DNA of 25,169 nucleotides from a virus: positions 1 through 25,169 of the IMG/VR virus record IMGVR_UViG_3300018428_000169. The stretch is one strand, 5' to 3'. The notes beneath the pieces were generated by a model, which saw only the letters and a program-made list of their open reading frames with translations, did not search any database and was not told the origin of the DNA. Shown here one piece after another: positions 14,553 through 24,908 of this stretch. How positions within the stretch are numbered: position 1 is the first letter of the stretch; every line of letters begins with the position of its first letter. The translations under genes and the position numbers were made by a program.

Positions 14553-14560
14553 TATTTATG
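14553..14560 (-). promoter_or_regulatory. Late-promoter-like motif of the tail-fibre gene
   Basis: Minus-strand CATAAATA, 29 bases before the GTG of the fibre gene, overlapping the stop region of the nuclease gene. One mismatch to TATAAATA, and a late gene is the expected target. Confidence 0.55.
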
Positions 14561-15236
14561 CTTGCATCTCATAATAAGAGTATACTCGTTTCCACCATTC
14601 TTCTTTCCACTCGTCAAATTCATCTGGCCATATGTCAAACTGTTGATATTCACCTGCTCTACTACACATAAACACATGTCCTTCGCGTATGTCTGTTCCG
14701 TGTACTTCATTATGTGCTATTGCATATGCTGTTAATTGTAGGAAATAGTCATAAACCCATTCTAGTTTCTTAGGTTTATTAGTTTGTTTAAAGTCCATAA
14801 TACACGGCTGACCTTTGTATTGTCCTACAAGGTCAGTTGTGCCTGCATAAATTCCTGGCACATACAACGGAACTTCACTACCCCATATTTCATCAACATC
14901 AACCATTGCATTTTCTTTAATTTGTGTTGCCATCATGTGCGCTTGTTGAGCGTAGGGATTACTACCTGGTTGAGGCCATTCACCTGTGTCAATATAGTCT
15001 TCAAGGTATTTGTGCATACGGGTACCAACACCGGCAGCTTCTGTTACAATCTCTTGTGCTTTTTGTTCACCCACCCTTTTTCGCCATGCAATTAGATGTG
15101 TTTTATCTTTTGTTGCGTCTAAGATAGTTGTTACACTTGCTACTGGTACACCGCCAGGTGCGGCATACTTACGTTTGCCGTTAACTTCAACTCGCTGAAG
15201 TTTTTCATATACAAATTTTTCGGTAATTAATGACAT
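14556..15236 (-). CDS. PD-(D/E)XK nuclease (RecB/Cas4-like exonuclease)
   Basis: 226 residues. Core motifs: GVGTRMHKYLEDY (the conserved His-bearing helix), YAGTTDLVGQYKG (catalytic Asp in TDLVG), IMDFKQTNK (D-x-K of the active site), then YFLQLTAYAIAHNEV (the Q-x-x-x-Y helix of RecB-like nucleases). I recall similar genes annotated as exonucleases in cyanophages and pelagiphages. It probably processes DNA ends during recombination or host DNA breakdown. The ATG at 15236 has AAAGGA 7 bases upstream, so it is preferred over an extension to 15269 that would run into the promoter at 15258-15286. Confidence 0.88.
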   Translation of the reverse strand: MSLITEKFVYEKLQRVEVNGKRKYAAPGGVPVASVTTILDATKDKTHLIAWRKRVGEQKAQEIVTEAAGVGTRMHKYLEDYIDTGEWPQPGSNPYAQQAHMMATQIKENAMVDVDEIWGSEVPLYVPGIYAGTTDLVGQYKGQPCIMDFKQTNKPKKLEWVYDYFLQLTAYAIAHNEVHGTDIREGHVFMCSRAGEYQQFDIWPDEFDEWKEEWWKRVYSYYEMQA

Positions 15237-15287: not shown

Positions 15288-15617
15288 CTATAAGTCGCTT
15301 AAATCAGTTGCTCTCTTTGCCATATCGCCTACTGTATCGGCAGAGCTTGGCTCAGTACTACCTAGTTGATCCATTGAGCTATCATTAATAGTTACCCCTT
15401 TAGGATCAAACTTAACTAGTTTCTGAAGTTGTGGATTAGTATCGTATGTTTCTTTGAATGTGTTATAATCAAACTGTGGCACGCCTGCTTTCTTCATATA
15501 GCCATTTAGACTATCCCAAGTGATAGTTGTGCCTGGTTTGATTGTTTTGATTATCTGAACTAAAGTGCCGGCTTCGTCTAAAGCTTCAGCTATCTTTTTT
15601 TTTGAATCAGTTAGATC
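15288..15617 (-). CDS. Downstream -1-frame ORF, probable C-terminal part of the scaffold-like protein
   Basis: Open frame beginning right at an A9 run and reading DLTDSKKKIAEALDEAGTLV, then QIIKTIKPGTTITWDSLNGY, then 69 more residues from MKKAGVPQFDY to RATDLSDL. The first internal ATG (15497) has no Shine-Dalgarno sequence, so an independent gene is unlikely. The frame joins the upstream 245-residue ORF if the ribosome or polymerase slips by one at A9, or if a near-repeat of 23 bases is collapsed. The joined product would be about 345-353 residues. Function unknown; it could be the genuine C-terminus of a head protein. Confidence 0.6.
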   Translation of the reverse strand, partial: DLTDSKKKIAEALDEAGTLVQIIKTIKPGTTITWDSLNGYMKKAGVPQFDYNTFKETYDTNPQLQKLVKFDPKGVTINDSSMDQLGSTEPSSADTVGDMAKRATDLSDL

Positions 15618-15630
15618 TTTTTTTTTGAAT
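15592..15630 (-). repeat. 16-base direct repeat containing two A9 runs
   Basis: ATTCAAAAAAAAAGAT occurs twice on the minus strand (15630-15615 and 15607-15592), spaced 23 bases start to start. The spacing is not a multiple of three, and the stop codon of the upstream ORF (15613-15611) lies between the copies. Confidence 0.95.
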
Positions 15631-16348
15631 TGTCTACGCTTTCACGCTTTTCACGACCAGCTTCTTCTTCGCCGCCTGCAGCCGCATCATCTGCACCGAA
15701 GTCGTCGCCCATGTCATCTACAGGTGCTTCTGCATCCATATCCATGTCGTCTGTTGGTTCCATGTCGCCCATGTCCCCCATGTCGTCAGATCCCATTGGC
15801 TCTGCCATGTCACCTTCACCAGTTAGCATACCTACACCATTTGTAAGTGCATCACGTGTTGTTTCCATTGTTGCGTATAGTTGCTCTAGTGCTGGCTTGA
15901 CTGTGTTAACAAATGATTCAGACTGTTCGCTTCCTAGTTCGTCACGGATAGCATCAGCAAGTTCTAGCATTGATTCTGTTTGCATCTCTGCTGTATCTTC
16001 CATCCAACCTGTAACTCTGTCAACCATATCTTTGGCAGCCATTACTAGTTCTGCTTCGTCTTCTTTACCTTCTACAATTTTTTCAGCTTCGTCAATATCA
16101 CCTCTTTCACCAATTTCAGCATTAATAACATCTAGGAATAGTTTTGATTTTTGGTATGCTGGATTTTGTGTAGAGCTAAAACTTTCTTTAGTTTCAACTT
16201 GGCTTAATTGAGTACGTAATTTGTTTTGTGCGTCCTGTAATTGACTTAAACTAAATTCTTCTAAGTTTAGACGCTGGCCAAACTTTGTTGCTAGGCTTTC
16301 ATTTAGAGCCTTTGCTGTAATCGGTTTTGATATTTCTCTAATGTTCAT
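15611..16348 (-). CDS. Acidic head-associated/scaffold-like protein (N-terminal part)
   Basis: 245 residues. It begins MNIREISKPITAKALNES, like other genes of this cluster, with an L-N-E that matches the T4 prohead protease recognition pattern. A helical region follows (about 20-190), with the Gln/Leu-rich NLEEFSLSQLQDAQNKLRTQ and WMEDTAEMQTESMLELADAI. Then comes an extremely acidic low-complexity stretch of Asp, Met, Gly and Ala repeats (about 190-232) and a basic SKKKI end. A similar N-terminus occurs in T4-like cyanophage head-region proteins in my memory. An acidic helical protein of this kind suits an internal scaffold or core protein. The reading frame ends just after an A9 run and the same theme continues in the -1 frame. 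Confidence 0.72.
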   Translation of the reverse strand: MNIREISKPITAKALNESLATKFGQRLNLEEFSLSQLQDAQNKLRTQLSQVETKESFSSTQNPAYQKSKLFLDVINAEIGERGDIDEAEKIVEGKEDEAELVMAAKDMVDRVTGWMEDTAEMQTESMLELADAIRDELGSEQSESFVNTVKPALEQLYATMETTRDALTNGVGMLTGEGDMAEPMGSDDMGDMGDMEPTDDMDMDAEAPVDDMGDDFGADDAAAGGEEEAGREKRESVDNSKKKI

Positions 16349-16383
16349 TGTTCAACTTCCTAAATGTTGTTCTTTTGTATATT

Positions 16384-16391
16384 TATTTATC
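16384..16391 (-). promoter_or_regulatory. Late-promoter-like motif
   Basis: Minus-strand GATAAATA, 35 bases before the ATG of the acidic head-associated protein, in the 45-base gap after the upstream gene. Confidence 0.52.
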
Positions 16392-16393
16392 AT

Positions 16394-16819
16394 TTAATAC
16401 AGGATAATGTCATCCAGTTGCGACTTGACATCATATGCTATATCATAACTTATGTCAAATCTAGTGGCTAGCACATCATATCTGGTCATGTCTTTTGTCT
16501 TTTTCATAGAATGATTATAAAAAACACAATCCTGATAGTGTTTACTTAATTGATCATCTAATTTTTTTATGTTTTGCAATGACCAAGTATTGTCAGTTGA
16601 TGACAATACCTTTGCATACGCAAGAGCGGCAGACTTTGCAAAGAATCTACCAACTTGTACACCTTTTGCACAATCGTATACAAGCCATCCTGCCTTCTTG
16701 CTAAACCTTACTACGTAATTTTTTATCCGAATGGAATTTCCTTTAACTATGGGTAAAGGATAATCTTTTATTTTGCTATTGATTAAGTGTTCAAGCCTCT
16801 TGGCTAGTTCCGAATTCAT
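16394..16819 (-). CDS. Conserved phage protein of unknown function
   Basis: 141 residues. The sequence IKDYPLPIVKGNSIRIKNYVVRFSKKAGWLVYDC, followed by GRFFAKSAALAYAK, resembles conserved proteins I recall from T4-like cyanophages. Strand-rich N-terminal half, then helices. No function is known to me. It overlaps the upstream gene by 29 bases, so it is co-transcribed with the small-protein cluster. Confidence 0.72.
   Translation of the reverse strand: MNSELAKRLEHLINSKIKDYPLPIVKGNSIRIKNYVVRFSKKAGWLVYDCAKGVQVGRFFAKSAALAYAKVLSSTDNTWSLQNIKKLDDQLSKHYQDCVFYNHSMKKTKDMTRYDVLATRFDISYDIAYDVKSQLDDIILY
16430..16458 (-). promoter_or_regulatory. Possible sigma70-like promoter inside a gene
   Basis: Minus strand TTGACA (16458-16453), 17 bases, TATGAT (16435-16430; five of six). 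It lies in the 3' part of the preceding gene and points at the acidic head-associated gene. It may be chance in AT-rich DNA, but the spacing is ideal. Confidence 0.42.
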
Positions 16820-17012
16820 TTTGCACCACCATTACCATATTTTTACGAACTACTTTACTTACTAAACTTTTGCGTATCAAGTTCTCGATTACGACTTGTT
16901 CTCTATCTGTGAAACTGTGCAACGGTTGCACTGGCTTTACTTTTTCTAAAACTTCTGCTTCTTCGTTTGATAGAGCTATTCTAAAACTAGTAATTAAATC
17001 ATTTAACTTCAT
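16791..17012 (-). CDS. Small conserved phage protein
   Basis: 73 residues: MKLNDLITSFRIALSNEEAE, then a helix with HSFTDREQVVIENLIRKSLV and a short beta end MVMVVQNEFG. I recall near-identical small proteins in cyanophages. The layout suggests a small winged-helix-like or helical protein, with no proven role. The start shares ATGA with the upstream stop. The N-terminal M-K-L-N-D-L echoes M-K-I-N-E-I/L of neighbouring genes. Confidence 0.72.
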   Translation of the reverse strand: MKLNDLITSFRIALSNEEAEVLEKVKPVQPLHSFTDREQVVIENLIRKSLVSKVVRKNMVMVVQNEFGTSQEA

Positions 17013-17257
17013 GGCTGGACAATAACCTTGTCGCCTCTTTTTGCTTGAGTGGCTGGATTAACTTTTTGTCCCGGTTGTGGCTTTTTAACAAGAGACACTT
17101 TCTTTGTCTTAGGATCTTTTTGTAGTGCATTTGGGTTTTTCTTAAGATCTATAATTGTTTTTGTGCCATCCATATGATCTACTTCTGCTGACTGTCCAGG
17201 CTTAAGGTTTTTAATAATTGATGGTTTGCCCGCTTGTACTATCTCATTTATTTTCAT
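17009..17257 (-). CDS. Small basic protein with MKINEI N-terminus
   Basis: 82 residues. MKINEIVQAGKPSIIKNLKP is followed by a strand pair (SAEVDHMDGTKTIIDLKK), then a Lys/Pro-rich tail (KTKKVSLVKKPQPGQKVNPATQAKRGDKVIVQP). No family recognised. The M-K-I-N-E start matches the gene at 19544-19909 and is similar to four other cluster genes. The basic tail and cluster position fit a small DNA-associated virion protein. Confidence 0.68.
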   Translation of the reverse strand: MKINEIVQAGKPSIIKNLKPGQSAEVDHMDGTKTIIDLKKNPNALQKDPKTKKVSLVKKPQPGQKVNPATQAKRGDKVIVQP

Positions 17258-17258
17258 T

Positions 17259-17567
17259 TTAAATCCTTTTTGCCTTAGACTTTTTACGTCTAGTTCTCAT
17301 ATTAATATTTACCCTAGGTAATCTGCGTGATGCTGGATTTGCACGTTTTGTTCTTGTGCTTTTTACCTTTATAGTGGGCGCCTTAGACCTTTTTATTTTT
17401 TTAAGAGTAGTGGCCTTCTTTACACTCTTTGGCGCTGTACAAGTAGACATTTTTGCAACAATACGTCCTTTACGTGGACCACTGTTACATCTATACCTAC
17501 GAACATTCTTCCCGCCTTTGCGTCCGTAGATTGAAGTTGCACCTTCTGTAATCTCTCTCAAAAACAT
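17259..17567 (-). CDS. Very basic small protein, paralogue of its upstream neighbour
   Basis: 102 residues, about one third Lys/Arg. After MFLREITEGATSIYGRKGG comes RRYRCNSGPRKGRIVAKMST with a further Cys, then a long Lys/Arg-rich tail containing RANPASRR. It shares with its upstream neighbour both the R-C-x-x-G...GRIVA...S-x-C block and the NPASRR block, so the two are tandem duplicates. Charge suggests packaging with DNA. The N-terminal I-T-E fits a T4-type prohead protease site. Coupled by TAATG to the neighbour. Confidence 0.72.
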   Translation of the reverse strand: MFLREITEGATSIYGRKGGKNVRRYRCNSGPRKGRIVAKMSTCTAPKSVKKATTLKKIKRSKAPTIKVKSTRTKRANPASRRLPRVNINMRTRRKKSKAKRI

Positions 17568-17863
17568 TAGATTCTCTTTGGTCTACTTGCTTTATTAAGA
17601 GCTGCTACTCTACGACTTGCTGGATTAACTCTTTTTGTTTTACGAGCCTTTCTAGCCATCTTTGAACCTAGTCTTGCTTTTGTCATTTTTAACTTGATAC
17701 GCTTTTTCATATCAGGTTTTGCAAAACATTGTGATATATTAGCAACAATCCTACCATGGCGCTTTCCGCCTGTGCATCTAAACTTACGTACAACTTTGTT
17801 GCCGCGTTTAGCCCAGGCCATTTTAGATTCGTCAAGTGGTAAGGTAATCTCTCTTAATAACAT
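17567..17863 (-). CDS. Very basic small protein, paralogue of its downstream neighbour
   Basis: 98 residues: MLLREITLPLDESKMAWAKR, then VVRKFRCTGGKRHGRIVANI with a second Cys, then a Lys/Arg-rich stretch ending KRVNPASRRVAALNKASRPK. The two cysteines are spaced as in the neighbour. The strong positive charge points to nucleic-acid binding, perhaps condensed DNA inside the head. A late motif ends only 5 bases before the ATG, so that transcript would have almost no leader; an internal ATG (codon 15) is the alternative start but would lose the leader-like N-terminus. Confidence 0.72.
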   Translation of the reverse strand: MLLREITLPLDESKMAWAKRGNKVVRKFRCTGGKRHGRIVANISQCFAKPDMKKRIKLKMTKARLGSKMARKARKTKRVNPASRRVAALNKASRPKRI

Positions 17864-17868
17864 ATAGT

Positions 17869-17876
17869 TATTTATC
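17869..17876 (-). promoter_or_regulatory. Late-promoter-like motif
   Basis: Minus-strand GATAAATA in the short gap upstream of the paired basic proteins. It is very close to the annotated ATG at 17863, so either the transcript is nearly leaderless or the motif is not used for this gene. Confidence 0.42.
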
Positions 17877-17879
17877 GGA

Positions 17880-18119
17880 TTATTGTGCGTTTAATAGTAT
17901 TACGACTATGGTAGATAGTAAACCAGCAACGATTGTGCCAGCTGTTCCGATTAACACTTTGGTCATTGACTTTTGACCTTCTGTTATATCGTGATGTATA
18001 TCTTCTACTTTTTGTTCAATCTTAGTAAGACGTCCTTCTAGTACTTCATAACGCTGAGCGCATAAGTCTACATGTGCTTCTAAGTTTTCTCTTTCTAGTT
18101 TTGTTGTGGCATTGGCCAT
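17880..18119 (-). CDS. Small membrane protein with coiled-coil head
   Basis: 79 residues: a charged helical region (KLERENLEAHVDLCAQRYEV, then RLTKIEQKVEDIHHDI) and a C-terminal transmembrane helix (MTKVLIGTAGTIVAGLLSTIVVILL). I recall close relatives in T4-like cyanophages. A tail-anchored or C-terminal membrane helix behind a coiled coil leaves open a holin-like or membrane-adaptor role; nothing decides. GGAG lies 7 bases upstream of the ATG, and a late motif is at 18212-18219. Confidence 0.72.
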   Translation of the reverse strand: MANATTKLERENLEAHVDLCAQRYEVLEGRLTKIEQKVEDIHHDITEGQKSMTKVLIGTAGTIVAGLLSTIVVILLNAQ

Positions 18120-18217
18120 CTATATCTCCGTTATCCTGCTCAAGGATTATTGTTTAAGTAAACTCGTAGTTGGCCTTAAAATAGATTGCCTGATATGCCT
18201 CTGTATAATTTTATTTA
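18120..18217 (-). other. 98-base intergenic leader with unexplained open stretch
   Basis: Between two genes, carrying the late motif at its edge and the leader of the small membrane protein. In the -1 frame relative to the upstream gene, after a stop, it reads NYTEAYQAIYFKANYEFT and then stops. That looks like a protein C-terminus rather than random sequence and could be the lost end of the upstream gene. Confidence 0.3.
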
Positions 18218-18219
18218 TC
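18212..18219 (-). promoter_or_regulatory. Late-promoter-like motif
   Basis: Minus-strand GATAAATA, overlapping the stop of the upstream gene and 93 bases before the ATG of the small membrane protein. Confidence 0.5.
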
Positions 18220-18592
18220 ATATTTCATAAAAAACAGTATTAATATTTTTCATATCAGTAGACTGAAATACAGGATTTTGAATGTCTATAGTTTCATCTA
18301 GGTCTTTAATAAAAGGCACTAGATCAAAGTCCTCTACTAATTGACTAACTTCTAAACTACCTTCTCTTTCTACTTCAAATGTTAATGTCCAGACTTTGTG
18401 TTTGCCTTTAAAACGAGTGCCAAACTCATTTTCTTGTAATTCTTCTTCGCCTGAATCTACCGTTATCTTACTAGGGTTACTACGCAAACCAAGAGTTTGT
18501 ACAGCGGTCATGTAGTTCTGATGTTGATTGTACATAAACCTATCTTCGGTACGCCTTGTGTATGTAGGCGTAATATCAATTAGTGTTTTCAT
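18218..18592 (-). CDS. Conserved phage structural-type protein, unknown function
   Basis: 124 residues from MKTLIDITPTYTRRTEDRFM. The protein is beta-rich (KVWTLTFEVEREG, LVEDFDLVPFI) and resembles small proteins I recall from T4-like cyanophages that share the start M-x-T-x-I-x-I-x-P-T-Y-x-R-R. An extension to an ATG at 18622 would overlap the terminator and has no ribosome site, so the ATG at 18592 is preferred. Start choice is uncertain: the nearest late motif (18610-18617) lies 17 bases upstream. The end may be shortened (see the following intergenic stretch). Confidence 0.68.
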   Translation of the reverse strand: MKTLIDITPTYTRRTEDRFMYNQHQNYMTAVQTLGLRSNPSKITVDSGEEELQENEFGTRFKGKHKVWTLTFEVEREGSLEVSQLVEDFDLVPFIKDLDETIDIQNPVFQSTDMKNINTVFYEI

Positions 18593-18609
18593 CTTGAAGA
18601 GCATAGTAC

Positions 18610-18617
18610 TATTTAAG
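18610..18617 (-). promoter_or_regulatory. Weak late-promoter-like motif
   Basis: Minus-strand CTTAAATA, directly downstream of a terminator and 17 bases before the ATG at 18592. It keeps the TAAATA core. Confidence 0.35.
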
Positions 18618-18622
18618 GTCAT

Positions 18623-18655
18623 AAAAAAAGGGTTCAGTAAAAACTGAACCCTTTT
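18623..18655 (-). terminator. Rho-independent terminator of the small Ala/Val-rich protein gene
   Basis: On the minus strand AAAAGGGTTCAG pairs with CTGAACCCTTTT around a six-base loop (TTTTTA), and three more T follow. The stem is 12 pairs. It lies 42 bases after the stop of the gene at 18697. Confidence 0.93.
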
Positions 18656-18696
18656 AGTGACGCCTGGTAACGTCGGTTCCTAAAGGTAGCTAGGAA

Positions 18697-19080
18697 TTAT
18701 GCTAATTCGCTAAATGCTAAAGTTAGAGCTGCTACAGTAACGTCTGATTTACCTGTACCTGCTGAAACTAATGCATCAATAGCTGCACCAACATCGCTGT
18801 CGCTGTTAGCTGAAACATATGCGTTTGCAGATGCGCCGTCTACCATAACAACGAAGCCTGCGTCTTCACGTGCACCAATGTGTACGATTGACATTTGCTG
18901 TTGAATAGCACGGATTGACTTTGAGAAGTTACCTTCTGTGAAAGCCGCTACACCGTCAACTGACGCTGTGTCTGCTGTTCCGATATCAGCTGCTGTGTTA
19001 GTAACTGAAAATACTAGTGGATCGTAGCCGTAAAAACTACCTGCGGTTGTTAAACCATTAACTTTTGGTTGTGTTGCCAT
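18697..19080 (-). CDS. Small Ala/Val/Ser-rich protein, insulated gene, unknown function
   Basis: 127 residues, acidic, low in Lys and with no Cys. Ala, Val, Ser, Asp and Gly dominate (VTNTAADIGTADTASVDG, GFVVMVDGASANAYVSANSD). It has no signal peptide and no transmembrane helix. Composition and length suggest an abundant soluble or virion surface protein such as a decoration protein; that is inference. It has its own late motif (19141-19148), a leader hairpin (19114-19130), a good ribosome site (TAGGAG 7 bases upstream) and a strong terminator, all signs of high and independent expression. Confidence 0.75.
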   Translation of the reverse strand: MATQPKVNGLTTAGSFYGYDPLVFSVTNTAADIGTADTASVDGVAAFTEGNFSKSIRAIQQQMSIVHIGAREDAGFVVMVDGASANAYVSANSDSDVGAAIDALVSAGTGKSDVTVAALTLAFSELA

Positions 19081-19113
19081 TTTATTTCTCCTATAAATTA
19101 TCTAATGACACAT

Positions 19114-19130
19114 CTTCGAGCTCCTCGAAG
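19114..19130 (-). promoter_or_regulatory. 5' leader hairpin
   Basis: Minus strand CTTCGAG-GAG-CTCGAAG: seven perfect pairs around a three-base loop, about 10 bases inside the predicted transcript. Such a structure near the 5' end often protects an mRNA from decay. Confidence 0.6.
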
Positions 19131-19140
19131 TGCTTATTAT

Positions 19141-19148
19141 TATTTAGT
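19141..19148 (-). promoter_or_regulatory. Late-promoter-like motif
   Basis: Minus-strand ACTAAATA, 61 bases before the ATG of the insulated small-protein gene. Two mismatches to TATAAATA but the TAAATA core is kept. Confidence 0.45.
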
Positions 19149-19169
19149 CTTTTTAGGAAAAAAAGGCGT

Positions 19170-19544
19170 TTATCGACCTTTTTTGGCTCTCTGATGCAAT
19201 AATCTAAGCATTTGCACGTATCCAGGGCCTGCTGTAACTATATCATCAAGCATTTGTAGTGCAGGAATAAAGCCTTTTACTATTGTTCCTGGCACTGGTT
19301 TACCGTCTAATGCTAGTTCTAGAAACTTTTTGGTGAGCATCATATTGCTTTGACCTACAATCATTCTATAAAGAGCTAGGTCTCTTGCTTCAACACGTTT
19401 TTCAATACGGTCAAATGCGCCTTCATCTAGCTCTTCTAGATCGTTAAAAACTAACTGTAGCTCTTCCAACTTGTCAAGAAATTCAGCACTATCTTTATCA
19501 GATATCACTTCTTGATTGTTTTCTAATGCTCTTATAAAGTCCAT
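19170..19544 (-). CDS. Conserved phage helical protein, unknown function
   Basis: 124 residues, acidic first half (AEFLDKLEELQLVFNDLEEL), helical throughout, basic C-terminus (RLLHQRAKKGR). No recognised domain. The ATG overlaps the stop of the upstream gene as TAATG, so the two are translated together. Position inside the head-protein cluster is the only hint of role. Confidence 0.68.
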   Translation of the reverse strand: MDFIRALENNQEVISDKDSAEFLDKLEELQLVFNDLEELDEGAFDRIEKRVEARDLALYRMIVGQSNMMLTKKFLELALDGKPVPGTIVKGFIPALQMLDDIVTAGPGYVQMLRLLHQRAKKGR

Positions 19545-19909
19545 TACTTTTTCTTACGTAAAATATTTAGAATTGACATTAAGCCTTCTGAGCTTTGGAT
19601 TTTTTGTTGTAGTGCTAGTTTTTGCTCTGGCTTACCAGGACCTTTAAGTACCTTAAGTATTGCCATTGCTTCTGGACGCTCAACTCTAATTTCTTTGCCG
19701 TCGTCGGTCTTAACACTTCTAACTGGATTCTTAATATCTGGATCGTCCTCAGAGTCTTCAATTCTCATAAGTTGGACTTGCATTGGTTCGCCCTTCAGTT
19801 TAATAGCAACAGTATCATCATCTTTGTCAAGCTCTGATCCGTGTGTGTCAAACCCTGGACGGTAATCCATATCAAAGTCTGCTTCTAAAATTAATTCATT
19901 AATTTTCAT
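19544..19909 (-). CDS. Small head-cluster protein with MKINELILEA N-terminus
   Basis: 121 residues. MKINELILEADF matches the length and form of the T4 capsid-targeting peptide (MKTYQEFIAEA), with I-L-E before Ala as a possible cleavage site. The rest is a beta-rich region (DDTVAIKLKGEPMQVQLMRI, SVKTDDGKEIRV) and a C-terminal helical part (EGLMSILNILRKKK). I recognise no enzyme motif. Confidence 0.7.
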   Translation of the reverse strand: MKINELILEADFDMDYRPGFDTHGSELDKDDDTVAIKLKGEPMQVQLMRIEDSEDDPDIKNPVRSVKTDDGKEIRVERPEAMAILKVLKGPGKPEQKLALQQKIQSSEGLMSILNILRKKK

Positions 19910-19921
19910 TTTCTTTTCCTT

Positions 19922-21013
19922 TTAGTTTGGTTGCCATCTAGCTCGTGGAACCAGTTTTACTTTTGACTTCTGAGCAACGTAGCCTTCGCCGCCTTGCTCA
20001 TCGCCTGTTGATGCTTTTATATCTGCATCAGCTTGATCTAGTTGATTTATGATATCATCCTTGGCCGCCATTATTTGCTTAACAAGTGCAAATATTGCTG
20101 GCAATGCTTTTGGATTTTGTTCATTCATAGCCGCTAGTTTTGCCTGTTGTCCTTGACTGACTTTACTTGTTTTTAGCCAATCAAAAAATCCTTTTTCGAT
20201 ATTATTAATTTGTTGTGTACGAGTCATATGATTCATATAAGTGTAAATAATCGCTGAAGGATTGCTTAATCCTTGGGTGCCTGCTAAGAATGAGTCTATT
20301 GCTTGGGCATTTGCGTTTACTTGCTTACGTATTGTATCAGTTCCTTTTGCATCAACACTAGGTTGGTGACTTACATACGTTTGTCCTAGTACAACTACAT
20401 CTTTGTTATTTAATTCGCCTGTTTGTTGTATAGGCTGTCCTGACTTATCGCCGAACTCATCATAACGAGTGTGTACTGTTACACCTACTTTAGATTGTGC
20501 TATCCTTTTGCCTAACTCGCTGTTAGCGTCAACAGTGTAAGTTACTTTGTTTGGTGTGAACTTAATCTTTCCATCTTGAATTGTGTAAGGTTTACCAGGA
20601 TGATATAACAAATCTCCGTAAACATATTGATCAACGCTCGGCGGTGTTGCATTTTTTAGTATATTAAATATACCGGCCATATCGTTGCCAAATTTCTCAC
20701 GCCAATCTTCTCCCTTGCCACTATTTTTAATAAATTTTGCTAGGTCTTCTGCGCTAGTACTTTTGTTACGACCCCATCCGTTTTTACCTACCATTACAAA
20801 CTGTCCGTCGTTTTCTCTACCCCAGTAGATAGTTGGATTGCCGTCCCACTTAATTGCAACATCTGAACTATCTTTACCTAAGTTATCTAAAATGTCTGCG
20901 GCTTTAAGAGCACCTTTAGACCCGTCAACAAACACTAGGTCTTCTAAGTGCTGGTACTCTCTACCAACCTTTGCCGCTTCTGTTAGGACATGTCTAAATT
21001 CTGTAAATCTCAT
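19922..21013 (-). CDS. Head-cluster protein with ligase-like KxDG motif (phage DUF6267-like)
   Basis: 363 residues. The first 13 (MRFTEFRHVLTEA) match the T4 capsid-targeting form, with L-T-E before Ala. VAIKWDGNPTIYWGR holds Lys55-x-Asp57-Gly58, the motif I of nucleotidyltransferase-type ligases, and is followed by FVMVGKNGWG. VYGDLLY (about 131-137) could be motif III, and the C-terminus KSKVKLVPRARW could hold motif V-like lysines. From memory the family occurs in T4-like marine phages as uncharacterised DUF6267 proteins. The ligase idea is inference from motif spacing. It overlaps the upstream nucleotidyltransferase gene by ATGA, so the two are made together. Confidence 0.78.
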   Translation of the reverse strand: MRFTEFRHVLTEAAKVGREYQHLEDLVFVDGSKGALKAADILDNLGKDSSDVAIKWDGNPTIYWGRENDGQFVMVGKNGWGRNKSTSAEDLAKFIKNSGKGEDWREKFGNDMAGIFNILKNATPPSVDQYVYGDLLYHPGKPYTIQDGKIKFTPNKVTYTVDANSELGKRIAQSKVGVTVHTRYDEFGDKSGQPIQQTGELNNKDVVVLGQTYVSHQPSVDAKGTDTIRKQVNANAQAIDSFLAGTQGLSNPSAIIYTYMNHMTRTQQINNIEKGFFDWLKTSKVSQGQQAKLAAMNEQNPKALPAIFALVKQIMAAKDDIINQLDQADADIKASTGDEQGGEGYVAQKSKVKLVPRARWQPN

Positions 21014-21780
21014 CTAGGTAGTAACTCTCTTATTCTGCGTAATTCTCTATCGGAAAAACTTTCAGTGTTAACTTTTGATTTTTTCCATGGATGCTTTGGA
21101 TCGTCGTTTGCTTCTAGTGCATCAACAAGTTCTTTTGCTTTTGGACTTACTTTAACCATTGCTTCAACTGATCCTAAATCTTTAGCACTAGCATTGCCGC
21201 CTAATAGTATTTTAGCAATTTCGTCTAAGTTACTAGATACTAGAGCATCATCTCTACGATCTAGTAGTCCTTTATATGCACTCCACTTAAACCCTTCTGG
21301 GTGATCGTCTGTTACTGTGTTCTTTGCAAGGTCTGCAATTAGTATTTGTTTGTGTACGCCTTTGTATGGCGAACCTTTAGGAATATCATGAACATGGAAC
21401 TTCTGTGCTGTTTCGCCATTGTCAACAACCATGATGTCAACTTGCTGTGCAGAATCGCCAATTGTTGTTTTAACATGTACGCTTGTTCCTGTTTTCTTTG
21501 TATCGAAACCTGCTTGTTGGAACATTTTTTCTAGTTCAACTCTAGCATCTTTAGGAGTCTTAACTTTAAAGAAGTTTAATAATGTGCCAGCATCAATAAT
21601 CATGTCTAAGTCGCCTGAACGTTTACCAGGGGTAGGTGTTGCACCTGACCCAATTGGCAGAGCTTTTGCACCAGTTTTAGATACTACACTATTAATCTGC
21701 TTCATCATATCACCTATGATGGCGTGATCAAAGTCTTCAGTTTCATCTGGCCAAATGTTGCCGCCTTCATTCAGTATCAT
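21010..21780 (-). CDS. Polymerase-beta-like nucleotidyltransferase
   Basis: 256 residues. LPIGSGATPTPGKRSGDLDMIID has the hallmark Gly-Ser helix start and two metal-binding aspartates (Asp57 and Asp59), and QQVDIMVV supplies the third (Asp115), so the whole metal-binding triad is present. The family adds nucleotides to RNA, proteins or small molecules. The substrate is unknown. The N-terminus MILNEGG has L-N-E before Gly, again like a prohead-protease site. The ATG at 21780 has GGAGG 9 bases upstream, preferred over a TTG at 21807. ATGA links it to the KxDG protein. Confidence 0.86.
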   Translation of the reverse strand: MILNEGGNIWPDETEDFDHAIIGDMMKQINSVVSKTGAKALPIGSGATPTPGKRSGDLDMIIDAGTLLNFFKVKTPKDARVELEKMFQQAGFDTKKTGTSVHVKTTIGDSAQQVDIMVVDNGETAQKFHVHDIPKGSPYKGVHKQILIADLAKNTVTDDHPEGFKWSAYKGLLDRRDDALVSSNLDEIAKILLGGNASAKDLGSVEAMVKVSPKAKELVDALEANDDPKHPWKKSKVNTESFSDRELRRIRELLPR

Positions 21781-22030
21781 TATCTTTTGCCTCCATAATT
21801 CTAGCAATGCTTCTTTTAAACTTTCTTGGATCTCCCGATCTGATACTGTTAAGAAAACGCCTTTCTAGTTCAGCGGCATTGTCTTGGTCGTAAACACGGT
21901 GAATCATATTAAGTAGATTAATAGAGCTTTCAATTATATTACTTGCTGTGGTCTCAATTAACAGATCATCATTCTTTGGCCTGCCAAGATTATTAAGTTC
22001 CTCAAGTATGCTTCTCGTCTTTTTACGCAT
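21767..22030 (-). CDS. Small conserved phage protein
   Basis: 87 residues: MRKKTRSILEELNNLGRPKN, DLLIETTASNIIESSINLLN, then a helical, mixed-charge C-terminus (RRFLNSIRSGDPRKFKRSIARIMEAKD). I recall close matches in T4-like cyanophages, without function. The ATG at 22030 follows AGGAACGGAACC; a longer frame to 22069 has no ribosome site. It is the first minus-strand gene of the head cluster and overlaps the nucleotidyltransferase start by 14 bases. Confidence 0.73.
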   Translation of the reverse strand: MRKKTRSILEELNNLGRPKNDDLLIETTASNIIESSINLLNMIHRVYDQDNAAELERRFLNSIRSGDPRKFKRSIARIMEAKDNDTE

Positions 22031-22106: not shown

Positions 22107-22871
22107 ATGTATAAGATAAATGATTTAAATATTTTAGAAAGATCATTATTATTCGCTAAGTTATCAAAGATAGCATATAATAACATCGACGAAGCGAAAA
22201 AGCAAGCAAAAACATTAGGATTTACTACTACAGAGTTTTACGATAAAAAAGGCGCACAAGCATACCGCTTTATGAATAAAACCGATTTAGTAATAGCATG
22301 TAGAGGTACACAACCTACAGAATTTAACGATATAAAAGCAGACGCAAATGCTCTACCAGTAGTTGCGGAAACTATTTCCAGAGTACATAAAGGTTTTAAA
22401 GCAGAAGTTGATGAACTTTGGCCTATGGTATTAGAAGATATAAATCGTAAGGCTAACGACAATAAAAAACTTTGGTTTTGTGGACATAGTTTAGGTGCGG
22501 CAATGGCAACTATAATGGCTAGTCGTTGTCATTTATATCCTGATATAAATCCTGTAGAAGAACTTTATACATATGGATCACCTAGAGTAGGTTGGCCCGG
22601 ATATTGTGACAGTTTAGGTATTGTGCATCATCGTTGGAAAAATAACAATGATATAGTTACTACTGTACCTTTTAACATTATGGGTTACAAACACCATGGA
22701 GAAGAACATTACATAAATGCTTACGGTCTTTTAAGAAATCCAACTGGCTGGCAAAGAGTAAAAGATAAGTTACGAGGCATCTGGATGGGGTGGAAACAGG
22801 GAAAAATTGACAGTTTTTCCGACCATAGCATCGATGAATATATCAAGCATATAGAAAATGCTAAATCCTAA
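22107..22871 (+). CDS. Class 3 lipase-like alpha/beta hydrolase
   Basis: 254 residues, the only gene on the plus strand. The nucleophile elbow is [11 protein letters not shown] with Ser128. [13 protein letters not shown] is typical of Lipase_3. Asp182 in [11 protein letters not shown] and His240 in SDHSIDEYI complete a plausible triad. There is no signal peptide, so it would act in the cytoplasm or on the inner face of the membrane. It could release fatty acids or loosen membranes; the substrate is unknown. The ATG at 22107 has GGAGGGAGAA directly upstream and is preferred to a TTG at 22086. Its end overlaps the convergent prs end by 11 bases. Confidence 0.88.
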
Positions 22872-23823
22872 GTTCAAATAAACTTGACACAGATTCTTCA
22901 TTAGACACTCGTCTAATTGCTTCACCAAAAAGTGCTCCAACTGATACTTGGCGCACTTTTTTTACAGTCCTAGGACACTTATATGTAATGCTGTCAGTAA
23001 CTACTAATTCGTCAAGAACACTCTTTTCCACACGCTGACATGCTTCTCCGCTTAGTACACCGTGTGTAATATATGCACGAACACTTAAAGCCCCTGCATC
23101 CATAATTGCTTTAGCGGCATTACATAATGTGCCGCCACTATCAACAATATCGTCTACAAGGATTGCATGTTTATCTTTTACATCACCAATTAGATTCATT
23201 ACCTCTGACTTGCCTGCTTCGGGTCTGCGCTTGTCAACAATAGCAATTTCACCGTGAAACATATCTGCAAATTTACGAGCTCTTACAACACCCCCTGCAT
23301 CAGGACTTACAAAAACTGTACCTGCTTGTTCTACTTCAGGATCGTCAATTATACCAAGTGTGCGTTTTATGTCTTTGGCAAATACTACACGGCTTGTTAA
23401 ATCGTCCACAGGAATATCAAAGAAGCCTTGTATCTGTCCAGCATGTAAATCCATTGTAAGCACTCTATCAGCACCAGCCTGAACAATTAGATTAGCAACT
23501 AGTTTTGCTGTGATAGGTGTGCGGCTCGCACTTTTACGATCCTGTCGTGCATAACCAAAATAAGGAATGACCGCTGTTATACGTTTCACACTAGAACGTC
23601 TTGCGGCATCTATCATTACTAGAAGTTCCATTAAATTGTCATTTACCGGTGTTGATGTAGGTTGTACAATAAAAACATCTTCACCTCTAATATTTTCTAA
23701 AAATTCAACACTTGTTTCTCCGTCTGCAAATGTTGTAACTTTAGATGGAACTAGGCCTGCAAAACAGTGTTCAGCTATTGCCTCTGCTAAATCTGGATTA
23801 GCATTTCCTGAGATAATTTTCAT
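22861..23823 (-). CDS. prs: Ribose-phosphate pyrophosphokinase (PRPP synthetase)
   Basis: About 320 residues, full length for the class I enzyme (E. coli 315). It makes PRPP from ribose 5-phosphate and ATP, for purine, pyrimidine and NAD synthesis. Motifs in order: [39 protein letters not shown] (ATP-binding RQD), [16 protein letters not shown], and the PRPP loop [15 protein letters not shown]. All catalytic segments look intact. An in-frame TTG at 23829 has better spacing to AAAGGA (6 bases rather than 12) and may be the true start. In other phages prs goes with NAD salvage; no nadV-type gene is in this window. Confidence 0.96.
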
Positions 23824-23903
23824 TTTCAAACTGTGTCCTTTCCCGTGTGGAAGTTGTTAATTGCTATTTTTATATTTAAACATAGTTCATTACAAAAGTC
23901 AAG

Positions 23904-23942: not shown

Positions 23943-24908
23943 TTAAAGTCCTATTTGATAAGGAACAATCAAGTAATGAATCATAAGAACAAGTGCTACT
24001 GACGCACCCAAACCTATCATCATTTTTTGGAAGTCTTTTGCAACTAGTGGAAAGACTGCCTTGGTCTTCTTCTTGCCAGTGAATGTAGCAATAGCAAGTT
24101 CACGACCTGCAAGCATACCAACGAACACCCAAGTAGTACTCATAGGAATATCGTTTAGCTCTTTGAAGAAGTACAAACACAACCAATAAAAAAGGTCAAT
24201 TAATGTAGCTGACCTTACGTATCTAGTGTTGTGTTTTTCTAGTACAATTTCTTGTATCTTGCCGCCACGTTCTCTAAACATAAAGAACAAGCCAGCAACG
24301 AATACTAAACTAACAAAAATCATTAGGTCAACTGGTATTACACGTGGTAGGAATACAGCAATGTTTGCCATATCGTGACTGAGCCACGTCCACCACAAAC
24401 CGCCAGTTGCTACCCATTGTGCTATCCGCCAATAATTTTTATTTTCTTCTTTAACAGGGACACTTTCGTCTAGGTATCTGCTTACTACATACCAAACTCC
24501 GTATGCGAACAGTGCCGCAATACCATATCCCATTATGCTTTTCATCAACATCTTTTCTAGCACAAAAGTACTTGCGAAAGCACTTAACACTAAAAAGGAA
24601 GTTGATACCGGTACACCTAGTCGTGTCAATGCAACTAGAATTGCCGGTGCGGCTGCGTGATACCATTGTATCTCTTGCCACGGTATTTTATTCAACCTGC
24701 CGTATGATATGTCGCCACCGTTGACTGACCAGCCATACCATAGCGTACATAATAAAACCGCACTAGCGGCGGCCCATAAAGTTTTATAGTTGAATCTCTC
24801 ATTGTTTGATGCCATCCACGTACCGAGAGTCTGTACTGAGTCGTTGGCAATAACCGCATATGCGGCAAATAGGAACCCTGCCAGGCTCCATAAGGTGAGT
24901 GCGTCCAT
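23943..24908 (-). CDS. PiT-family phosphate permease
   Basis: 321 residues with about nine or ten hydrophobic helices. The first repeat has the PiT signature AVIANDSVQTLGTWM and TRLGVPVSTSFLVL. The second has SHDMANIAVFLPR and DIPMSTTWVFVGMLAGRE. These paired ND/G...PxST motifs mark PHO4/PiT carriers that take up inorganic phosphate with a cation. It is shorter than cellular PiT proteins (often 400-500), the central loop being reduced, but both signatures are kept. GGAG lies 8 bases before the ATG. It stands alone with a consensus late motif, two leader hairpins and a terminator. Confidence 0.9.
   Translation of the reverse strand: MDALTLWSLAGFLFAAYAVIANDSVQTLGTWMASNNERFNYKTLWAAASAVLLCTLWYGWSVNGGDISYGRLNKIPWQEIQWYHAAAPAILVALTRLGVPVSTSFLVLSAFASTFVLEKMLMKSIMGYGIAALFAYGVWYVVSRYLDESVPVKEENKNYWRIAQWVATGGLWWTWLSHDMANIAVFLPRVIPVDLMIFVSLVFVAGLFFMFRERGGKIQEIVLEKHNTRYVRSATLIDLFYWLCLYFFKELNDIPMSTTWVFVGMLAGRELAIATFTGKKKTKAVFPLVAKDFQKMMIGLGASVALVLMIHYLIVPYQIGL

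Follow-up and report, generated by a model that had tools for sequence, protein, structure and literature searches.

The 25,169-base IMG/VR virus fragment IMGVR_UViG_3300018428_000169 (positions 1-25,169; hereafter the window) derives from an uncultured marine phage of the giant type and carries on its minus strand, at 15288-22030, a cluster of genes whose products begin with short leader peptides. In five protein families (g2, g3, g9, g10 and g14) these leaders are probably best explained as a T4-type capsid-targeting and propeptide system, a role supported by the conservation of a junction at the end of the leader, by leaderless orthologues, by the occurrence of both gp21 and gp23 homologues in the lineage and by synteny with a virion-protein region of phage Atu_ph07. 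In T4, gp21 cleaves at the motif L/I-X-E, and the 10-19-residue propeptides of the internal proteins (IPs) act as capsid-targeting sequences (CTS) (PMC9026906).

The sequence-only reading had listed seven such peptides, and all seven are encoded as claimed, on the minus strand in seven open reading frames (ORFs) within 15611-21780; an eighth start of similar kind, MKLNDLI, lies at 17012 on the same strand. The ORFs are as follows, with ↓ marking the predicted cut.

21010..21780, minus strand: g2, Pol-X-like nucleotidyltransferase (NTase), 256 aa; starts MILNEGG at 21780; leader MILNE at 21766-21780; LNE↓GGNIW
19922..21013, minus strand: g3, DUF6267 ligase-like protein, 363 aa; starts MRFTEFRHVLTEA at 21013; leader MRFTEFRHVLTE at 20978-21013; LTE↓AAKVG
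19544..19909, minus strand: g4, 121 aa; starts MKINELILEA at 19909; leader MKINELILE at 19883-19909; ILE↓A
17567..17863, minus strand: g9, basic protein of isoelectric point (pI) 12, 98 aa; starts MLLREITLPLDES at 17863; leader MLLREITLPLDE at 17828-17863; LDE↓S
17259..17567, minus strand: g10, basic, apparent paralogue of g9, 102 aa; starts MFLREITEG at 17567; leader MFLREITE at 17544-17567; ITE↓G
17009..17257, minus strand: g11, 82 aa, pI 10.1; leader-like start MKINEIV at 17257, no conserved junction
16791..17012, minus strand: g12, 73 aa; leader-like start MKLNDLI, no conserved junction; similar by eye to Atu_ph07 gp46
15611..16348, minus strand: g14, acidic, pI 4.1, 245 aa; starts MNIREISKPITAKALNES at 16348; leader MNIREISKPITAKALNE at 16298-16348; LNE↓S

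Scored as M-x-[LIFMVWY]-x-[EDNQ]-[LIFMVW], with the expectation drawn from internal methionines, this start pattern occurs at 8 of the 45 ORF starts in the window against 0.3 expected (p=1.8e-9), a value that is partly circular because the pattern was derived from the window's own peptides. The 236-kb relative G001, a more independent test that nevertheless contains homologues of the same genes, shows it at 22 of 360 ORFs against 5.9 expected (p=2.2e-7), most of them clustered around 97-103 kb and 201-208 kb.

N-termini were compared family by family across a homologue set of 80 related loci. In g2, g3, g9, g10 and g14 a glutamate preceded at position -2 by L, I, V or F borders the conserved domain in 91-100% of the distinct sequences (100% of 22 for g9 and 91% for g10; in g14 the junction is LNE in 100% of 23 sequences). 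Within the leaders conservation is confined to this glutamate and the hydrophobic residue at -2, and the remainder drifts in all five families. Leader length varies strongly in g3 (11-39 residues), g10 (8-27) and g9 (12-18) and is nearly fixed in g2 (5-6) and g14 (16-17). Such junction behaviour was seen in none of 12 control families taken from the same loci. In g2, residues L3, E5, G6 and G7 are invariant across 24 homologues, and E12 of g3 is invariant among its homologues. No conserved (L/I)-x-E junction was found among homologues of g11 and g12, so that the alignment upholds the proposed T4-like targeting peptides and their cleavage sites for five families but not for MKINEIV and MKLNDLI. 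The g4 leader and cut site are plausible, though weakly so, with 10 homologues but three distinct N-termini, too few for the junction test. Two conserved motifs of the cluster member g1, LEE and IIE, were set aside as cleavage sites because they are internal, at constant length, in a protein that has no leader.

Leaderless orthologues mark the same boundary. Atu_ph07 gp65 and Sinorhizobium phage Phosso 447, orthologues of g2, begin M-GG, that is, with the residues that follow LNE↓, and leaderless cyanophage DUF6267 proteins begin at about the g3 junction. In the structural models the leaders fall in ends of low confidence (pLDDT <50 at residues 1-19 of g3 and 1-6 of g2).

The description of the leader-bearing proteins as unrelated holds for g2, g3, g9/g10 and g14, which differ in fold and charge, but g9 and g10 look like paralogues of each other: the MLLREI (g9) and MFLREI (g10) proteins have equal match totals (93 ORFs in 47 loci each) and a common RCxxGxRxGRIVA motif. 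Very basic proteins are present as had been stated, the mature part of g9 containing 36% K/R and 1% D/E.

Matches to DUF6267 had at first led to the assumption of a cyanophage-type virus, which was given up in view of the terminase of G001; this terminase is nearest to those of PA5oct-like, Phosso, BF and Atu_ph07 phages, and the lineage belongs to the T4 superfamily. Neither gp23 nor an S77 protease was found in the closest large relatives of the window (G001-G012), probably because these contigs are fragments. The sister contig G013, which holds a long gene run in common with G001, carries both a Peptidase_S77 (gp21-type) gene and a gp23 gene, placing the pair at the level of the lineage, in which a scaffold-like gene is also found. 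The G013 gp23 sequence KYLSE↓SATAGATSAGN aligns with SAPLME↓NATAGATSSGN of Atu_ph07, with L-x-E at the expected place.

The cluster is also syntenic with coding sequences (CDS) 31-76 of Atu_ph07, and with Phosso, and the syntenic block takes in three further genes of the window:

21767..22030, minus strand: g1, conserved leaderless cluster member; matches phrog_11854 virion structural protein (E 4.3e-14); relative of Atu_ph07 gp68
19170..19544, minus strand: g5, leaderless cluster member; longer homologous ORFs of relatives match Atu_ph07 gp64 and Phosso 448
14556..15236, minus strand: g16, exonuclease-like, end of the syntenic block; Atu_ph07 gp35 is ~45-47% identical to the relatives' orthologue

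In Atu_ph07 the order is gp35 (exonuclease), gp44 (homologous to g14), gp46 (g12, by eye), gp53-gp63, gp64 (g5), gp65 (g2), gp66 (a KLDG ligase-like protein) and gp68 (g1). CDS 31-76 is one of three virion-protein-rich regions of that phage, with 29 products detected by mass spectrometry region-wide (PMC6102473), and the synteny with it supports a capsid-targeting and propeptide role. Within the window, g14 matches phrog_14154 virion structural protein (E 1.3e-13). As in the window, leaders are numerous in Atu_ph07, where they are of the MKW/MRWxQL(T/N)E type; unlike in the window, they lie on the paralogous gp53-gp63 family (M(R/K)WxQL(T/N/I)E or similar, e.g. MRWEQLTE), and also on gp381 and gp408 (L186). 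One member of this family, gp53, additionally contains a kinase domain of the Zeta-toxin-like type (E 1.5e-14). An assignment of gp53-gp62, which have a YRG motif, as ADP-ribosyltransferases found no Pfam or PDB-profile support and was dropped; only gp381 gives a weak ART-PolyVal match, below the cut-off. Separately, the annotated start of gp66 (L095:32164-33138, minus strand) looks too late, an upstream in-frame MKHIYDL resembling the start of its Phosso counterpart.

The two enzyme-like proteins noticed earlier are g2 and g3, whose genes overlap by 4 nt. The AlphaFold2 model of g2 (pLDDT 87) agrees with DNA polymerases beta and lambda over palm and thumb (Foldseek E 8.8e-7; Z 11.8 across ~170 residues), and the catalytic residues S55, G56, D57 and D59 (S-G-D-x-D) and the third aspartate D115 are invariant. 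The palm fold, a G-[GS]...DxD motif and a third Asp, which define family X and the Pol-beta superfamily, are thus all present, and by its model g2 looks like a family-X polymerase of this superfamily. The g3 protein matches DUF6267 (E 5e-33), a family for which we found no paper, and conserves KWDG, EGYVA and K-x-K; we take KxDG to be ligase motif I, EGxV motif IV and the lysine motif V. The residues K55, W56, D57, G58, E343, G344, V346 and K353 are invariant, cyanophage homologues included, and RNA/DNA ligases make up 48 of the 50 best VIA rows, with Z values of just 4.6-6.0. With motifs I, IV and V of the ATP-dependent nucleic-acid ligase superfamily in place, g3 looks like an ATP-dependent ligase. 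The targets, said earlier to be undescribed in the host, can be narrowed accordingly: for enzymes resembling a polymerase X and a ligase, nucleic acids are the probable substrates.

Whether these would be DNA or RNA bears on the enzymes only, and either answer is compatible with the T4-type reading. Repair of RNA, for instance of tRNAs cut by host anticodon nucleases, has a probability that we place slightly short of even. RNA ligases and tRNA ligases top the VIA rows of g3, in jumbo phages RlaP-family Pol-beta NTases have a predicted role alongside RNA ligases (PMC7824862), and a Pol-beta-like NTase also adjoins a ligase-like gene in Atu_ph07 and Phosso, where the KLDG protein gives a weak, sub-cut-off match to Pfam RNA_ligase; this protein resembles a ligase family different from that of g3. 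On the other hand, DNA ligases come within 1 Z of RNA ligases in the comparison of g3, and g2 fits DNA polymerases in both palm and thumb.

Several points weigh against a T4-type targeting and propeptide system. The T4 CTS and the leaders of the window are alike in kind only, their hydrophobic/acidic register being shifted by one residue in peptides too short to align. The S77 protease and gp23 were seen in G013 and not in the window or G001, and the DUF6267 gene was not found in the fragment that G013 represents. Genes with the leader pattern are weakly enriched in the virion clusters of Atu_ph07 (20/151 vs 60/702, p=0.054). The NTase and ligase counterparts of Atu_ph07 and Phosso carry no leader, and packaging of the pair is therefore not general. 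As to the enzymes, the Foldseek E-values of g3 were not significant (>0.1), and a profile search of PDB sequences gave no match for either g3 or g2. Finally, the acidic g14 may be a head core protein rather than cargo.

Extended to all leader proteins, this last possibility becomes an alternative in which they would belong to the prohead core or scaffold, as T4 gp67, gp68 and gp22 do; the protease would cut them, they would mostly be gone by the time DNA is packaged, and none would be injected. It draws on the composition of g14 (25% D/E) and on T4, in which the same protease cuts core proteins that are mostly removed (PMC9026906). We regard it as unlikely, given that neither a pair of enzymes whose catalytic motifs are intact nor the very basic g9 and g10 resemble scaffold, and that T4-like basic internal proteins stay in the head. 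Less likely still, and indeed improbable, is that the peptide is a docking signal for another destination, such as a replication compartment or the assembling tail or baseplate, with the (L/I)-x-E incidental: the start motif does occur without a junction, on g11 and g12, and many small Atu_ph07 genes that lie outside the virion clusters have it too, but the junction glutamate and its -2 hydrophobic residue persist as the remaining leader residues drift, and gene fusions (described below) retain the junction only. That the starts arose by chance from composition, or by common ancestry, fits the apparent paralogy of g9 and g10, yet it is very improbable and already largely refuted by the enrichment (8 starts against 0.3 expected) and the junction test, g2, g3, g9/g10 and g14 being unrelated in fold and charge and two of them having leaderless relatives.

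Under the T4-type reading, we infer that the leaders of g2, g3, g9, g10 and g14, and probably g4, would act as capsid-targeting propeptides. The N-terminal half of the leader (M-x-hydrophobic-x-E-hydrophobic) would recruit the protein to the assembling prohead core, and the gp21-type S77 prohead protease would cleave after (L/I/V)-x-E, releasing the mature protein within the head. The mature proteins would remain there with the DNA, to which the basic g9 and g10 would bind, and would be delivered upon infection. Once inside the cell, g2 and g3 would work as a pair before phage gene expression, filling gaps and sealing ends either in phage DNA that is nicked or gapped or in RNA that has been cleaved; the virus may thus deliver a small repair kit along with its genome.

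As in T4 IPI-III and Alt, proteins that are otherwise unrelated to one another begin with a short peptide ending in (L/I)-x-E, some of these proteins are basic, and the lineage has homologues of gp21 and gp23. The system differs in that its cargo shows no found relation to the IPs and includes polymerase-X-like and ligase-like enzymes, and in that the leaders of the lineage are far more variable and of other register and length, some relatives having a four-cysteine (Cys4) cassette within them. Head proteolysis in phiKZ and SPN3US likewise removes N-terminal propeptides from many cargo proteins of the head, often with several sites, but the motif there is S/A-X-E, whereas in this lineage of the T4 superfamily it is (L/I/V)-x-E. 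Phage polyvalent proteins (PMC5512222) and RlaP/RNA-ligase repair (PMC7824862) also bring together multi-domain or paired enzymes thought to be active at the onset of infection; in the window these are instead separate proteins with predicted cleavable leaders.

The Cys4 cassette, about [ED]W(V/F)CGxCxx[ED]PCxC, was counted in 69 distinct contexts across the loci retrieved, of which ~2 are probably due to chance, and is followed by (L/I/V/F)xE within eight residues in 57 of the 69. Relatives of g3 and g10 have it in their leaders, between two (L/I/V/F)xE sites, and it also lies inside longer proteins; a 31-residue query gave no match among cultured phage records at the sensitivity used. Its hosts are unrelated marine-phage proteins (L034, L051, L052, L080, L229, L290, L302 and ~60 other contexts). 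Two polyprotein-like ORFs, in L229 (6830-7837, minus strand) and L302 (51-4325, minus strand; 1,425 residues, including a tRNA nucleotidyltransferase-like domain), fuse domains that in G001 are separate leader-bearing genes. The fusions retain the junction glutamate despite loss of the start codon, as (V/I)xE↓KWSxKYKxSINC, in the series MRWSEVTE↓KWSQKYKRS, ...VEVNE↓KWSQKYKRS and ...DIFE↓KWSNKYKKS. A second leader cluster, at L092:11033-14214 (G001 201033-204214), encodes a cytidylyltransferase-like (MLLRQLFEE) and a 5'-nucleotidase-like (MRWSEVTE) protein. As a separate observation, the cytidylyltransferase of cyanophage P-TIM40 (L306:5171-6244), beside a leaderless DUF6267 gene, has the leader-like start MRFLDFIKEA.

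Beyond the syntenic genes, the minus-strand run of the window is interrupted by a lipase-like ORF; it and the two ORFs adjoining it were recognised by eye.

22107-22871, plus strand: lipase-like
22861-23829, minus strand: PRPP-synthetase-like
23943-24908, minus strand: phosphate-permease-like

It is possible, although we advance it only tentatively and think it more doubtful than the T4-type reading itself, that a widespread lineage of uncultured marine jumbo phages loads a nucleic-acid repair kit either as leader proteins or as polyproteins cut at (L/I/V)-x-E. This kit would comprise polymerase X and ligase, to which relatives would add the cytidylyltransferase-like protein, 5'-nucleotidase and tRNA nucleotidyltransferase, and the Cys4 cassette, inserted between cleavage sites, would be freed inside the prohead as a metal-binding peptide. 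Targeting and cleavage of this kind are already known. Novelty appears to lie in the cargo, in the variability of the leaders, in the cassette and in the fusions; no paper describing leaders of this type from marine jumbo phages was found in a literature coverage that was largely open-access, so that their absence is not proven.

If the T4-type reading is true, the leaders could double as protein-packaging tags for large phage heads. Carrying a gap-filling and sealing pair in the virion would allow repair at time zero, ahead of host nucleases and anticodon nucleases. T4-style protein loading would moreover be a general code legible from sequence, and any gene with a leader and junction in these phages would become a candidate for virion cargo, turning unannotated genes into testable predictions.

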